Origin: Microbulbifer sediminum
GTDB lineage: Bacteria; Pseudomonadota; Gammaproteobacteria; Pseudomonadales; Cellvibrionaceae
DNA: 64,000 nt
Reading direction: 5' to 3'
NCBI RefSeq assembly: GCF_021729035.1
Contig: NZ_JAJSAP010000006.1
Location: 124,001 to 188,000, forward strand
Part shown: positions 1,550 through 33,039 of the stretch, one piece after another
Layout of the letters: every line of letters begins with the position of its first letter
Numbering within the stretch: position 1 is the first letter of the stretch
Program-made: the position numbers and the translations under genes
Notes under the pieces: generated by a model
The model's input: the letters and a program-made list of their open reading frames with translations, nothing else
Database searches by the model: none
What the model was told of the DNA's origin: nothing

Positions 1550-2677
1550 ATGCATGATGTCTTTGTTACCGGCAGTGGCAGCTTCCTGCCGGGGACTCCG
1601 GTGGATAACCGGGAAATGGAAGGGCGGATTGGCCTGCTCGGGCCTCACAGCCGGCGTCTGAAAGCTGCCACCCTGCGCCAGAATGGGATTCAATCGCGGC
1701 ACTATGCAATAGACGCGGGTGGAAACCACCTCTTTACCAATGCGGCAATGGCTGCGCGGGCCGTCGAAGCCGCATGCGACCGGGCGCGGGTGGACTGTAA
1801 CAGCCTGGATTATCTCGCCGCCAGCACTACCCAGGGTGACATGTTGGTGCCCGGCCACGCCAGCGCCGTCCATGGGGAATTGGGGCGGGGGCAGCTCGAA
1901 CTGGGCTCCTTCCAGAGTGTTTGCGGCAGCAGCATGATGGCGATCAAGTCCGCCTACCTGAACCTCAGGGCCGGGGAGCACCGGTGCGCCGCCGCCTGTG
2001 GCAGCGAGTTCTCGAGCCGGTGGTTCCAGCCAGGTTTCTACGATGCCGTCGACTTTGTATCCATGGGCACCGAAGATGCTTTCCGGTATGAGTTCCTGCG
2101 CTGGACCCTGTCCGATGGTGCCGGCGCCCTGTTGCTGGAGACCGAGGCGCAGCCCGGCCCGCCCTGCCTGCGCATTGACTGGATTGAGCAGAAATCCTTT
2201 GCCGATCGTTTTCCCGCCTGCATGTCCGCTGGCAGTTCCCGGCTTCCCGATGGTGGAGAGCGGCCCTGGTCCCATTTCGGTTCCCCGGTCGGTGCCGCTG
2301 AGGGAGGCGCTTTCCCGCTACGCCAGGACTTTCACCTGCTGGAGCGGATGTTCCCGGTGTGGGTGGGGTATTACCTGGAGGTGCTGGAGCGGAGGGGACT
2401 GGACCCCGCCAGGGTCAGGTATTTCTTGCCCCACTACTCGGCACGCGCCCTGGGACAGCGGATGCAACGACTACTGGAAAAGGCCGGTGCAATGATCCCG
2501 GAGGATCGCTGGCGCAATCATCAGGATCGGGTGGGCAATGTTGGCAGTGCCTCAATCTTCCTGCTGCTCGACCGGTTGTTAAGGGAAGAGGAGTTGCGGG
2601 AGGGCGACCGGGTCCTTTGCTTTGTTCCGGAGAGCGGTCGCTGCCTGGCCGCGTTTATGTGCCTGACGGTGGTATGA
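1550..2677 (+). CDS. Beta-ketoacyl synthase III-type condensing enzyme (StlD/DarB-like)
   Basis: A 375-residue thiolase-fold condensing enzyme that would join an acyl starter to a malonyl-type extender. The catalytic triad is visible: Cys125 in VCGSSMMAIKSAYL, His295 in LPHYSARALG, and Asn330 in VGNVGSASIF. The opening MHDVFVTGSGSFLPGTPVDN is typical of the KSIII branch used in specialised metabolism rather than housekeeping FabH, and a separate FabH-like gene exists at 31733-32878. Start ATG 1550 fits the family N-terminus, but its ribosome-binding site is weak. It is the first gene of a tight operon (4 bases to the next gene). Product is unknown; DarB-like resorcinol chemistry is only one possibility. 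Confidence 0.82.
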   Translation: MHDVFVTGSGSFLPGTPVDNREMEGRIGLLGPHSRRLKAATLRQNGIQSRHYAIDAGGNHLFTNAAMAARAVEAACDRARVDCNSLDYLAASTTQGDMLVPGHASAVHGELGRGQLELGSFQSVCGSSMMAIKSAYLNLRAGEHRCAAACGSEFSSRWFQPGFYDAVDFVSMGTEDAFRYEFLRWTLSDGAGALLLETEAQPGPPCLRIDWIEQKSFADRFPACMSAGSSRLPDGGERPWSHFGSPVGAAEGGAFPLRQDFHLLERMFPVWVGYYLEVLERRGLDPARVRYFLPHYSARALGQRMQRLLEKAGAMIPEDRWRNHQDRVGNVGSASIFLLLDRLLREEELREGDRVLCFVPESGRCLAAFMCLTVV

Positions 2678-2681
2678 AACG

Positions 2682-3362
2682 ATGCAGCATGAATTGAGCG
2701 AGGGCCAGAGGCTGGTCCGGGAACTGGGGCGAACCTGGGCGGAATTTGAGAGCCGGCTGGTAAAGGTGCCAATTATTGCACGGGCACTGCGTGGTGCCAT
2801 CCGCCTGGAGGATTACCGGCTGTTACTGCACGATCACTACCAACAGGTTATCGATGGTGCCTGCTGGATATCACGGGCCGCTTCTTCAATCGGCCGCGAC
2901 CATCTCGAGCTCCGCTCGCAGTTCCTGCGCCATGCGGGTACCGAGCACCGGGATTACCGCATGCTGGAACAGGATTACCGACGGGTCGGAGGAGACGTGC
3001 AGCAATTGCGCCTGGGACAGAAAAATATTGGTGCCAGCGCCCTGTCAGCCTGGATGATGCAGCGGGCTTCCCGGCCGGATCCCCTCGACCTGCTGGGGGC
3101 CATGTTCATGATCGAGGGGCTGGGTAAGCACTTTGCCGGTATGTTTGCCGGCGCCCTGCAGCAGCACCTGGAGCTGCAGGATGACCAGGTGAGTTTCTAC
3201 CTTTACCACGCCGAGCACGATGAAGACCACCTGCAGCAGCTACACGAACTGTTCGACTCCGGCCTGTTGCAGGAGCCCGGGCTTGCGAGTCGCATCGCGC
3301 ACACCGCGCGTGTCACCGGTCGCCTTTACCTGTTGCAGCTGGAAGAGCTGGGGAGTTACTGA
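2682..3362 (+). CDS. Haem-oxygenase-fold (HDO/TenA-like) iron-containing redox enzyme
   Basis: A 226-residue all-helical protein of the haem-oxygenase-like di-iron oxidase superfamily, whose known members include UndA (alkene-forming), CADD and SznF. The C-terminal ligand motif H-x3-D-x2-H is present as His176, Asp180 and His183; Glu145 lies in FMIEGLGKH; and the first helix pair carries His84, Glu88 and His89, where the usual E-x2-H spacing is altered. Iron binding is therefore likely but inferred. It lies 4 bases after the ketosynthase and overlaps the next gene by one base (TGATG), so translation is coupled. A role in oxidising the ketosynthase product is the natural inference. Confidence 0.75.
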   Translation: MQHELSEGQRLVRELGRTWAEFESRLVKVPIIARALRGAIRLEDYRLLLHDHYQQVIDGACWISRAASSIGRDHLELRSQFLRHAGTEHRDYRMLEQDYRRVGGDVQQLRLGQKNIGASALSAWMMQRASRPDPLDLLGAMFMIEGLGKHFAGMFAGALQQHLELQDDQVSFYLYHAEHDEDHLQQLHELFDSGLLQEPGLASRIAHTARVTGRLYLLQLEELGSY

Positions 3363-4297
3363 TGGGCTGGAACAGCGACTTCGAGCAGTCGAGCCTCAAC
3401 CACACGGACCCCAACCCCTGGCTGGTGCTCTACCTGGATCGCAGCCTGCCTATCCATGACCGGGCCAAGCGCGCCCTGCTGGCCGGGCATAATACCTGGT
3501 CACGCCGGTTGCTGCTGCCACTGGTGCGACCGTTGGCCCGACTCTCGATTGTGCTGGTGCAGTTGTTGCGGCTGTTGATTCCTGAGCGCTGGCATTCATC
3601 GTGGGTGCTGCACCGGACTATCTACTGGGGGCTGCGGTACTTTGTGCGCGCGGACGCCAACTACCTGATCCTGCGCCATTTCAATATCGGCACGGAGCTG
3701 TTGCAGTTTATCGCCGACAACGTGGGAGGCGTTGCGATCAGCAGCACCCGCCCGTTGCGGCCGCGGAAGCTGGAAGACCTCCTGGACGATACGTTCCTGA
3801 TTCACGACCTCAATATTTACAATTTCATCGGTGAGCTGAGCCAGCAGCTGGCCGACCAGGGGCGTGAAATCCAACCCCCCGCCAGCCTGGACTTTAGTGC
3901 CATTTCCGATGGTGATTTTGACCTGGAACCGGGAGGCCGGTATGCGACCAGTGTCCTCGACCTGCAGACAGCGATCGAACTCTACACTCCCCTTTATGCC
4001 CTTTTCCTCTCCGATCACGATTTCTGGCGGGCCAGTAATTCCCTGCAGCTCGATGAAACCATTTCCATCTATATTGGTAAGTTGCTGAATGACCCAACTG
4101 CCCTGTCGTTGGTCAGTAACCGTCACCCAATGGTCCCGCACACGACACTGCAGGCGGGTTTCCGCCTGATGCTGCATGGGTTGGACGCGGAAATCCTGCA
4201 CGGCTACCTGCGCGAGCTCAAGCGCGCAGGCCGGCAACAGGTGGCGCAGGAGCCGGCGCCCGCTGAACGCCGGGAGCAGGGCGTTGCCGAGGCCTGA
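3362..4297 (+). CDS. Uncharacterised 311-aa protein of ketosynthase/oxidase operon
   Basis: I cannot assign a function. The protein starts with a DPNPWLVLYLDRSLPIHDRAK segment, then a strongly hydrophobic/basic helix region (about residues 45-75, SRRLLLPLVRPLARLSIVLVQLLRLL) that could lie in or on the membrane. The middle has ANYLILRHFNIGTELLQFIADN and DDTFLIHDLNIYNF, rich in His, Asn and Asp, with several invariant-looking polar residues. I have a weak recollection of similar proteins (possibly DUF6999) in Bacteroidetes beside the same two enzymes, not verifiable here. Its start codon overlaps the stop of the preceding oxidase gene by one base, so it very likely acts with it. Confidence 0.7.
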   Translation: MGWNSDFEQSSLNHTDPNPWLVLYLDRSLPIHDRAKRALLAGHNTWSRRLLLPLVRPLARLSIVLVQLLRLLIPERWHSSWVLHRTIYWGLRYFVRADANYLILRHFNIGTELLQFIADNVGGVAISSTRPLRPRKLEDLLDDTFLIHDLNIYNFIGELSQQLADQGREIQPPASLDFSAISDGDFDLEPGGRYATSVLDLQTAIELYTPLYALFLSDHDFWRASNSLQLDETISIYIGKLLNDPTALSLVSNRHPMVPHTTLQAGFRLMLHGLDAEILHGYLRELKRAGRQQVAQEPAPAERREQGVAEA

Positions 4298-4468: not shown

Positions 4469-4861
4469 ATGGGACCTAAAGCCGCCGTCAGCTGCCTGAG
4501 AGTTGTCCTGGTTGTTTTCGGGCTGTTTTTCATTTTCGGCATCTACGCCATGATGATGTGGGTCTGGCCTGAGGGCTGGGGCTGGACTCCGCGGCAGTAT
4601 GAATACGAACAAATGATCATGGGCGTTTACGCCACCCTGGGCGTGTTCCTGATCCGGGCTGCGCGGGATCCGCTGGGCAACGCCAGCCTGATCTGGTTTA
4701 CCGTCTGGTCCAGCGTCGTGCATGGCCTGATCATGCTGGTACAGGCGCTTGTCGACAGCACCGAACGGCACAACCTGCTCGGGGACGTGCCGGCCCTGTT
4801 GATACTGGCCGCGGTGCTGGGCTACCTGATGCAACGGGCCACACGGTCACCGGCCAGCTGA
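4469..4861 (+). CDS. Small inner-membrane protein, DUF6632-like
   Basis: A 130-residue protein with about four membrane segments (residues 9-32, 50-63, 71-91 and 104-120). It starts at ATG 4469, eight bases after a strong AAGGAGG. The pattern YAMMMWVWPEGWGW followed by YEQMIMGVYATLGVFLIRAARDPLGN-SLI resembles the DUF6632 family of small bacterial membrane proteins. No catalytic residues can be recognised and no function is known for the family. It stands alone between the ketosynthase operon and srkA. Confidence 0.7.
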   Translation: MGPKAAVSCLRVVLVVFGLFFIFGIYAMMMWVWPEGWGWTPRQYEYEQMIMGVYATLGVFLIRAARDPLGNASLIWFTVWSSVVHGLIMLVQALVDSTERHNLLGDVPALLILAAVLGYLMQRATRSPAS

Positions 4862-31732: not shown

Positions 31733-32878
31733 TCAGGCCCGGATTTTCTCCACCACCAGGCTGCCGATGGAGTAACCCGCGCCAAAAGAGCAGATCACAC
31801 CGCGATCGCCCGGCTGCAGGTCCTCACGATGGAGATGGAAGGCGATCACGGAGCCGGCACAGCCGGTGTTGGCGTAGCGGTCCAGGACCACCGGCGCGCG
31901 CTCGGCGCTGGCAGCATCGCCCATCAGCTTTTTCGCGATCAGGTTGTTCATGTTGATATTGGCCTGGTGCAGCCAGTAGCGGGGCAGTTCTGCCGGCTCA
32001 CCCCCGGTATCGCGCACGTGTTCCTCGATATGGGCCGCCGCCATGGGGCAGACTTCCTTGAACACCTTGCGCCCGTTCTGGCGAAACAGCTTGCCATCAC
32101 CGAACGGGTCCACATCCGCGGCGCGCGCCGTGTAGCCGAAGTTGGAACGGATATTGTTGGAGAATACGGTTTTCGCGCGGGTGCCGAGGATCTCCCAGGC
32201 ATCGCTGCTGGTGCAGGTCTCACGGCGTTCCACCACGGTTGCGACTGCCACGTCACCGAAAATGAAGTGGCTGTCGCGGTCGGTGAAGTCGATCTGCGGC
32301 GAGGCCAGCTCCGGGTTCACCACCAGCACGGCCCCTGCCGAGCCCGAGCATATGGCATCCACTGCCCGTTGCAGGGCGAAGGTGGCGGAGGAACAGGCCA
32401 CTTCCATATCAAAGGCAAAGCCGTCGATGCCCAGTGCATCCTGGATCTCGATAGCAATCGCCGGGTAGGCCCGCTGCAGGTAGGATGCGCCCACGATGAC
32501 TGCGTCGATATCCCCTGGCTTCTTGCCCGCGGCAGCGAGGGCGTCCTTCGCCGCGGTGACACCCATTTCCGCCTGCAGGCACAACTCGTCGTCGGCGCGT
32601 TCCGGCAGGAAGGGGCGCATACGCTGCGGGTCGAGGATGCCCTCGGGGCTGACCACGTAGCGGCTCTTGATTCCCGAGGCCTTCTCGATAAATTCCGCCG
32701 ATGACAGCGGCTTGGCTGCCACCTCTCCGGCCTCGATCGCCGCAGCGTGCTCGGTATTGAACTGCTCGGCAAAACGATTGTAGGCCTCGACCAGCTCTTC
32801 ATTGCTGATCGAATGGGGCGGTGTCCAGAGGCCGGTGCCGCTGATCACCACGCTGTGCGGCAACTTGTTGTCACTCAT
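31733..32878 (-). CDS. FabH-like beta-ketoacyl-ACP synthase III (Pseudomonas FabH2 type)
   Basis: A 381-residue KSIII enzyme. Catalytic Cys162 lies in EVACSSATFAL; the His is in YWLHQANINM and the Asn in YANTGCAGSV. The start HSVVISGTGLWTPPHSISNEELV and insert EHAAAIEAGEVAA match the group that includes Pseudomonas aeruginosa PA3286 (FabH2), which condenses octanoyl-CoA from beta-oxidation with malonyl-ACP; by homology this gene may shunt degradation intermediates to synthesis. MSDNKL at 32878 is the chosen start. It is monocistronic with a strong terminator. Confidence 0.85.
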   Translation of the reverse strand: MSDNKLPHSVVISGTGLWTPPHSISNEELVEAYNRFAEQFNTEHAAAIEAGEVAAKPLSSAEFIEKASGIKSRYVVSPEGILDPQRMRPFLPERADDELCLQAEMGVTAAKDALAAAGKKPGDIDAVIVGASYLQRAYPAIAIEIQDALGIDGFAFDMEVACSSATFALQRAVDAICSGSAGAVLVVNPELASPQIDFTDRDSHFIFGDVAVATVVERRETCTSSDAWEILGTRAKTVFSNNIRSNFGYTARAADVDPFGDGKLFRQNGRKVFKEVCPMAAAHIEEHVRDTGGEPAELPRYWLHQANINMNNLIAKKLMGDAASAERAPVVLDRYANTGCAGSVIAFHLHREDLQPGDRGVICSFGAGYSIGSLVVEKIRA

Positions 32879-33039
32879 CGCTGGAATTCCCGTCTGGCGC
32901 TCGACGGCATGCGAGCGGCTGGTCACTAGGTATAACGTTAGCAGCGCTGGTCATGGTTGAGACTCTGGTACCAGACTGGCGCGGGGCGCTATTGTGACGG
33001 GATGTCGCTATCGGGTCTATTTCCGATGAGGACGAAGTG

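Follow-up and report, generated by a model that had tools for sequence, protein, structure and literature searches.

A three-gene cassette of a StlD/DarB-related ketosynthase, a haem-oxygenase-like dimetal oxidase and a DUF6999 protein recurs across bacterial phyla and is a candidate pathway to an oxidised lipid

Three tightly coupled genes of a Microbulbifer genome, at positions 1550-4297 of the window (the whole stretch of 64,000 nucleotides analysed here), encode a ketosynthase (KS), a haem-oxygenase-like dimetal oxidase (HDO) and a protein of the family DUF6999. We proposed that they very probably act in a common pathway whose product is oxidised and derived from fatty acids; the best explanation of the whole, which we put forward tentatively and at a little under an even chance, is a self-contained unit making a phenolic or otherwise oxidised lipid. 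The KS gene (1550..2677, plus strand, ATG at 1550 and stop codon to 2677) specifies a 375-aa protein of KAS III type, related to StlD/DarB, with a C125/H295/N330 triad and the glutamate E153. It is followed by the HDO gene (2682..3362, plus strand; 226 aa), whose product matches PF14518 with 39.4 bits (cut-off 28.9), and by the DUF6999 gene (3362..4297, plus strand; 311 aa), whose product is predicted to be all-helical. Four bases separate the KS and HDO genes, and the HDO and DUF6999 genes overlap by one base; this coupling had been described in the original prediction, and the coordinates agreed when re-read. The third protein, which had been considered unassignable, in fact matched PF22523 (DUF6999) over residues 13-287 with 388 bits against a cut-off of 27.

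Judged by the ORF list and Pfam, the cassette is flanked most closely by a glyoxalase-fold gene upstream and, downstream, by a DUF6632 gene (4469-4861), which marks the cassette site in Microbulbifer, and an APH-type kinase gene; as previously noted from the sequence, no carrier protein, thioesterase or transporter gene adjoins the cassette in the window. A separate FabH-like gene had also been reported there. A second KAS III-like gene was indeed present at 31733-32926 on the minus strand, but with 161.6 bits to NF006829 it fell below the cut-off of 249 for that family. The source genome, assembled in 15 contigs, holds another HDO-family gene (G000:C9:52874-53476, L149), which scored 101 bits against the cassette HDO profile and sits directly downstream of a 722-aa ORF.

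The conservation of the arrangement was addressed in two sets of loci. The first consisted of 30 loci, namely the window, 28 genome loci and one Pseudoalteromonas plasmid (a 31st locus, L054, was a weak hit with none of the three genes and was left out), and in all 30 the KS, HDO and DUF6999 genes lay in this order on one strand. The second consisted of the best 80 of at least 534 relatives among at least 594 pattern stretches in a scan of GTDB contigs, and is skewed to closer relatives because only these 80 were examined. Here, 76 of the 80 loci had all three genes in order on one strand, including L072 and L104, in which the KS was cut by the contig end; in the other four the match lay near a contig end, and L066 and L091 were without the KS, and L081 and L084 without both KS and HDO. 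Six records were common to both sets, and the 110 rows therefore represent 104 distinct loci (the best 80 of at least 534 relatives included), in all of which order and strand were kept save for the four at a contig edge. The search for the same three genes in order across genomes, suggested in the original prediction as a check, was thus borne out, and recurrence in both sets indicated that the arrangement is not a product of chance. Among viral contigs, 15 pattern stretches were found and no relative was among them.

The occurrence of the genes was also correlated. With the source genome counted each time, DUF6999 was detected in 12 of 48 genomes of the genus, 10 of 244 genomes of the order and 9 of 398 genomes in a sample of the phylum Pseudomonadota; a thirteenth genus match (G640, E 4e-4) was dropped because the cassette genes were not found there. 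In the reverse search, with an E limit of 1e-35, the HDO profile matched exactly the same 9 of the 398 genomes. Of the 244 order genomes, 79 contained some HDO match with E no higher than 1e-10, but a match above 200 bits (the next being 101 bits) was confined to 11, which were the 10 DUF6999 genomes and G033. In G033 a KS-HDO pair (L139, 632-2582) was observed without DUF6999, which may be an early or reduced form of the cassette. A 961-aa ORF, with a start that appeared ATP-binding-like by eye, follows this pair.

Labels in the second set (the best 80 of at least 534 relatives) covered Alpha-, Beta- and Gammaproteobacteria, Acidobacteria, Myxococcota, Planctomycetes and Paenibacillus/Cohnella. 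The MAG labels of L063, L066, L099 and L134 (Acaryochloris, Rickettsiales and Chlorobiales) fitted the cassette tree badly or stood alone, and mis-binning is a possible explanation for them. The DUF6999 protein of Microbulbifer sp. YPW16 was 89% identical to that of the window. In Pseudoalteromonas sp. THAF3, the cassette (L058, 10000-12618) is located on an 801-kb replicon recorded as a plasmid.

In many of these loci the first two genes have become one. KS and HDO shared a reading frame in 6 of the 30 first-set loci and 50 of the 76 second-set loci (from the best 80 of at least 534 relatives), that is, in 56 of 106 rows or 55 of the 100 distinct loci in which both were seen, across five phyla. 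A KS tree of 114 rows was built by a quick method and given a midpoint root; the partial sequence L103 and the contig-truncated L104 were excluded. On this tree, the fused state requires at least four changes, one of which depends on the doubtful L136, a MAG with KS and HDO in different frames. That fusion or fission has recurred strongly indicates that the KS and HDO steps are consecutive. Together, gene order kept across phyla, repeated fusion and matching occurrence supported the joint pathway claimed in the original prediction, and the three genes probably constitute one pathway, as firmly as sequence can establish.

The nearest solved relative of the KS was StlD (5gk0, E 3.3e-70), which was far closer than FabH; a generic FabH identity was therefore rejected in favour of a relationship to StlD/DarB. 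The predicted triad was present and conserved: among 106 KS rows (including the best 80 of at least 534 relatives), C125 and E153 were invariant in all 103 that cover them, and H295 and N330 in all 105. E153 aligns with a Glu of StlD; many KAS III enzymes may share a Glu of this kind, and E153 is thus no proof of cyclisation. Against NF005293, the StlD/DarB family, the window KS scored 334 bits, under the cut-off of 450, and four other cassette or KS-HDO proteins scored 322, 322, 331 and 444; the DarB-type control L145 reached 570 bits, and 457 against the stricter DarB model NF053539 (cut-off 550). With 334 of the 450 bits, the cassette KS may have changed chemistry relative to StlD/DarB.

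In the order sample, a similar KS at E up to 1e-30 was found in 20 of the 244 genomes, comprising ten cassettes, G033 and nine other contexts. Where the contig was long enough, these nine resembled the published dar cluster in ORF order and size, for which the available text gives darA, darB, darD, darE and an ABC transporter, with DarA named a DAR aromatase (PMC3949708). Their KSs formed one clade with a support of 99, and 102 cassette KSs (the best 80 of at least 534 relatives included) lay on the opposite side of the tree; the cassette KSs of L019 and L020 and the KS of G033 fell nearer the nine, on long branches of this midpoint-rooted tree. The ORF before the KS of L145, named DarA-like by position only, was used as a query and had no match in NCBIfam. 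The DarA-like protein was present in all five tested genomes of the nine (the source of the query among them), and was absent from G033 and from 17 of 18 cassette genomes tested, including that of the window; the sole exception, G595, carries it on another contig. These results indicated that the cassette for the most part forms a branch of its own, one that has HDO and DUF6999 but lacks DarA. Thus, the cassette shares with StlD and the DarA-DarB dialkylresorcinol pathway the KS branch, the catalytic triad and the Glu, and acyl-derived substrates are expected; however, its KS scores under the family cut-off and mostly belongs to a clade of its own, the DarA-like protein is generally missing from its genomes, and HDO and DUF6999 replace darA, darD and darE beside the KS. 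A DarB-type KS and a separate dimetal enzyme also share a cluster in cyanobacteria, where the available text describes bartoloside-type clusters with DarA/DarB and a dimetal halogenase of the CylC type (PMC8406957). Unlike the cassette, those clusters keep DarA. To our knowledge, CylC is not an HDO.

For the HDO, the model (pLDDT 94.0, 21-row alignment) predicted a haem-oxygenase-like helical fold, with 3dde (TM 0.84) and CtCADD (TM about 0.80) as the best matches and UndA at rank 13; 31 PDB chains matched at E up to 0.001, with TenA thiaminases and true haem oxygenases among them. Seven residues, H84, E88, D91, E145, H176, D180 and H183, were invariant in all 108 rows (including the best 80 of at least 534 relatives). 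They contain the iron motif H176-x3-D180-x2-H183 recognised in the original prediction, and conservation of the expected kinds of ligand residue is consistent with a metal-type HDO, as had been claimed. According to the available text of a review, the HDO ligand set usually comprises three His and three carboxylates, with a fourth carboxylate in about a quarter (PMC13108848). Judged by sequence, the ligand-type composition of the cassette HDO, three His and four acids, agrees with this, but the invariant His of the first ligand helix, H84, precedes rather than follows E88. In the profile alignment, D91 stands opposite a His of 3dde, and the UndA His, following an insertion of two residues, aligns with H89, a position that holds Gln in 32 of the 108 rows (the best 80 of at least 534 relatives included). 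No invariant His follows E88, and the metal site may therefore differ. In summary, the cassette HDO shares with UndA, CtCADD and other HDOs the predicted fold, the H-x3-D-x2-H helix and invariant Glu on other helices, whereas its first ligand helix carries an invariant H-x3-E-x2-D in place of the H-x3-E-x2-H of 3dde, and it is often fused to a ketosynthase, which was not found described for known HDOs in a limited literature search.

The possibility that this HDO-fold protein is not an oxidase, and instead resembles a hydrolase, has a structural role or buffers metals or oxidants, so that the KS product is final or goes to DUF6999, was considered very unlikely. TenA thiaminases share the fold, and there is a precedent in DtpC, an HDO-like protein that protects against oxidative stress according to the available text (PMC13232832); however, the three His and four carboxylates are invariant in every row (the best 80 of at least 534 relatives included), and the protein is fused to a KS with an intact triad. 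Another reading concerns the intermediate: the KS might make a linear product by a head-to-head or single Claisen condensation, and an UndA-like HDO might decarboxylate the acid to an alkene or cleave it to a ketone. UndA, a fatty acid decarboxylase by the available review text (PMC13108848), is among the HDO relatives by profile and by fold, and the lipid-enzyme context of the cassette relatives described below also agrees. However, the profile relationship to UndA is weak (E 0.0012), and 3dde and CtCADD fit the HDO model better. In addition, StlD, the closest solved KS, cyclises, and the KS family matches are not led by any head-to-head synthase. Thus, we regarded a linear product as rather unlikely. 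The alkene formation and N-oxygenation mentioned in the original prediction are conjectural, and the KS family suggests instead a condensation of the StlD/DarB type.

The DUF6999 protein is strongly conserved: D26, L83, R105, H106, F116, N120, H148, D149, D200 and L216 were invariant in all 110 rows, and D231 and H272 in all 109 that cover them (both counts with the best 80 of at least 534 relatives). The original prediction had proposed modelling its structure and looking for a pocket. A confident all-helical model was indeed obtained (pLDDT 88.4, pTM 0.86, 23 rows), but no Foldseek match reached an E of 0.001, the best values being 0.66 in PDB and 0.43 in BFVD. In a PDB sequence search, the best E was 0.04, to an acetyltransferase subunit over 46 residues. 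A relationship to HDOs was rejected by profile comparison (probability 0.1%), and UndA and PolF among the weak PDB fold matches were discounted, with E above 1 and TM under 0.2. The H...HD...D spacing resembles what we take to be the HD-domain enzyme pattern; no such fold was among the best 50 matches of either Foldseek search, and this reading is not claimed. In the model, the invariant His and Asp residues are distributed among several helices, as might suit a site for metal binding or acid-base catalysis, and DUF6999 is possibly a membrane-associated metalloprotein.

The neighbourhood of the relatives indicated the nature of the product. In 43 of 110 rows, representing 42 of the 104 distinct loci, a gene for an FA_desaturase, an FA_hydroxylase or a His-box membrane protein lay either inside the cassette or no more than 2 kb away on the same strand, and one row only had such a gene farther out, on the opposite strand; both counts include the best 80 of at least 534 relatives, the comparison being of 0.41 Mb of 2-kb flanks with a 1.32-Mb remainder that includes the cassettes themselves. 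ORFs around the cassettes were called by a simple script and are rough; Pfam confirmed the FA_desaturase and FA_hydroxylase families in seven scanned examples. A hydroxylase and a desaturase lie upstream of the cassette mainly in Burkholderiales, a desaturase lies between HDO and DUF6999 in Myxococcota and Acidobacteria, and the His-box gene is upstream in Gammaproteobacteria and downstream in Planctomycetes and in L099 (labelled Rickettsiales). The protein of about 185 aa with a His-rich motif was seen upstream in L015, L016, L017, L018, L045 and L058 and downstream in L087, L089, L090 and L099; the one His-box protein scanned had no Pfam or NCBIfam match. Among the 110 rows (the best 80 of at least 534 relatives included), four have within 1 kb a gene presumed to encode an Aas-like acyl-ACP synthetase, and three have within 100 bp of the cassette a gene that we take to be lipase-like. 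No carrier-protein or electron-donor gene was consistently adjacent. A Cupin_8/JmjC-like gene (L080, 4250-5128) was observed just upstream of a Corallococcus cassette. Since lipid-enzyme genes adjoin 42 of the 104 loci, a lipid-like product is indicated, in agreement with the lipid leaning of the original prediction, and it is plausible that the cassette borrows from fatty-acid synthesis. These desaturase, hydroxylase and synthetase genes would also suit a membrane-lipid unit, in which the HDO desaturates or hydroxylates a special acyl chain that the KS has primed or elongated, and DUF6999 together with membrane desaturases completes an unusual membrane lipid. However, no desaturase, hydroxylase or His-box gene was found within 2 kb in the window or the other Microbulbifer rows, and the patchy presence within the genus (12 of 48 genomes, own genome included) is more like that of a secondary product; we therefore considered such a unit improbable.

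In the window and its nearest kin, L046 and L047, the cassette lies between the glyoxalase-fold gene and the DUF6632 gene. Eight cassette-lacking Microbulbifer genomes were compared, of 33 with the glyoxalase gene, and in seven of them the two flanking genes are neighbours, their aligned parts being 47-126 bp apart in six and about 840 in one; the eighth shows the glyoxalase-fold gene only. Thus, at this site the genomes differ by the presence of just these three genes, and the cassette comes or goes as one module. In L052, also from Microbulbifer, the cassette occurs without any of these flanking genes. No shared motif upstream of the KS was evident by eye in 12 Microbulbifer loci.

For the phenolic or otherwise oxidised lipid that we prefer, the following route is proposed. 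The KS would draw acyl chains from fatty-acid synthesis and join two of them as StlD/DarB do, giving a cyclohexane-1,3-dione or a related beta-dicarbonyl, maybe still bearing a carboxylate. This product would be handed directly to the HDO and oxidised there by the metal pair and O2, either through desaturation and aromatisation, which might release CO2 as in UndA, or through hydroxylation, so that the HDO would take the role of the aromatase DarA in dialkylresorcinol pathways. DUF6999 would perform a third step, and membrane desaturases and hydroxylases would modify the resulting phenolic or otherwise oxidised lipid further in some lineages. The central pair of steps, DarB-like cyclisation by the KS and oxidation by the HDO, is proposed by analogy and as a tentative reading, somewhat short of an even chance.

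In a limited literature search, we found no description of the KS-HDO-DUF6999 cassette and no paper on DUF6999. The word 'ketosynthase' does not occur in the available part of the HDO review (PMC13108848) or in PMC13185094. One paper links 'heme-oxygenase-like', diiron and ketosynthase; in its available part, the ketosynthase is a type I PKS domain, and it was set aside. The cassette is carried by cultured Microbulbifer, Myxococcus and Paenibacillus species and the Caulobacter vibrioides control genome also matches DUF6999, so that the molecule can be sought directly. The cassette gives DUF6999 a functional setting, and the fusion of KS to HDO suggests that a single polypeptide both forms C-C bonds and carries out an oxidation driven by O2. 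In a broader and more doubtful form of our proposal, KS and HDO would work as a single enzyme that condenses and oxidises, and DUF6999 would act next, as a helical metalloprotein with a new fold, in an undescribed cross-phylum pathway to a phenolic lipid or quinone-like molecule that may be of general use to aerobic bacteria.
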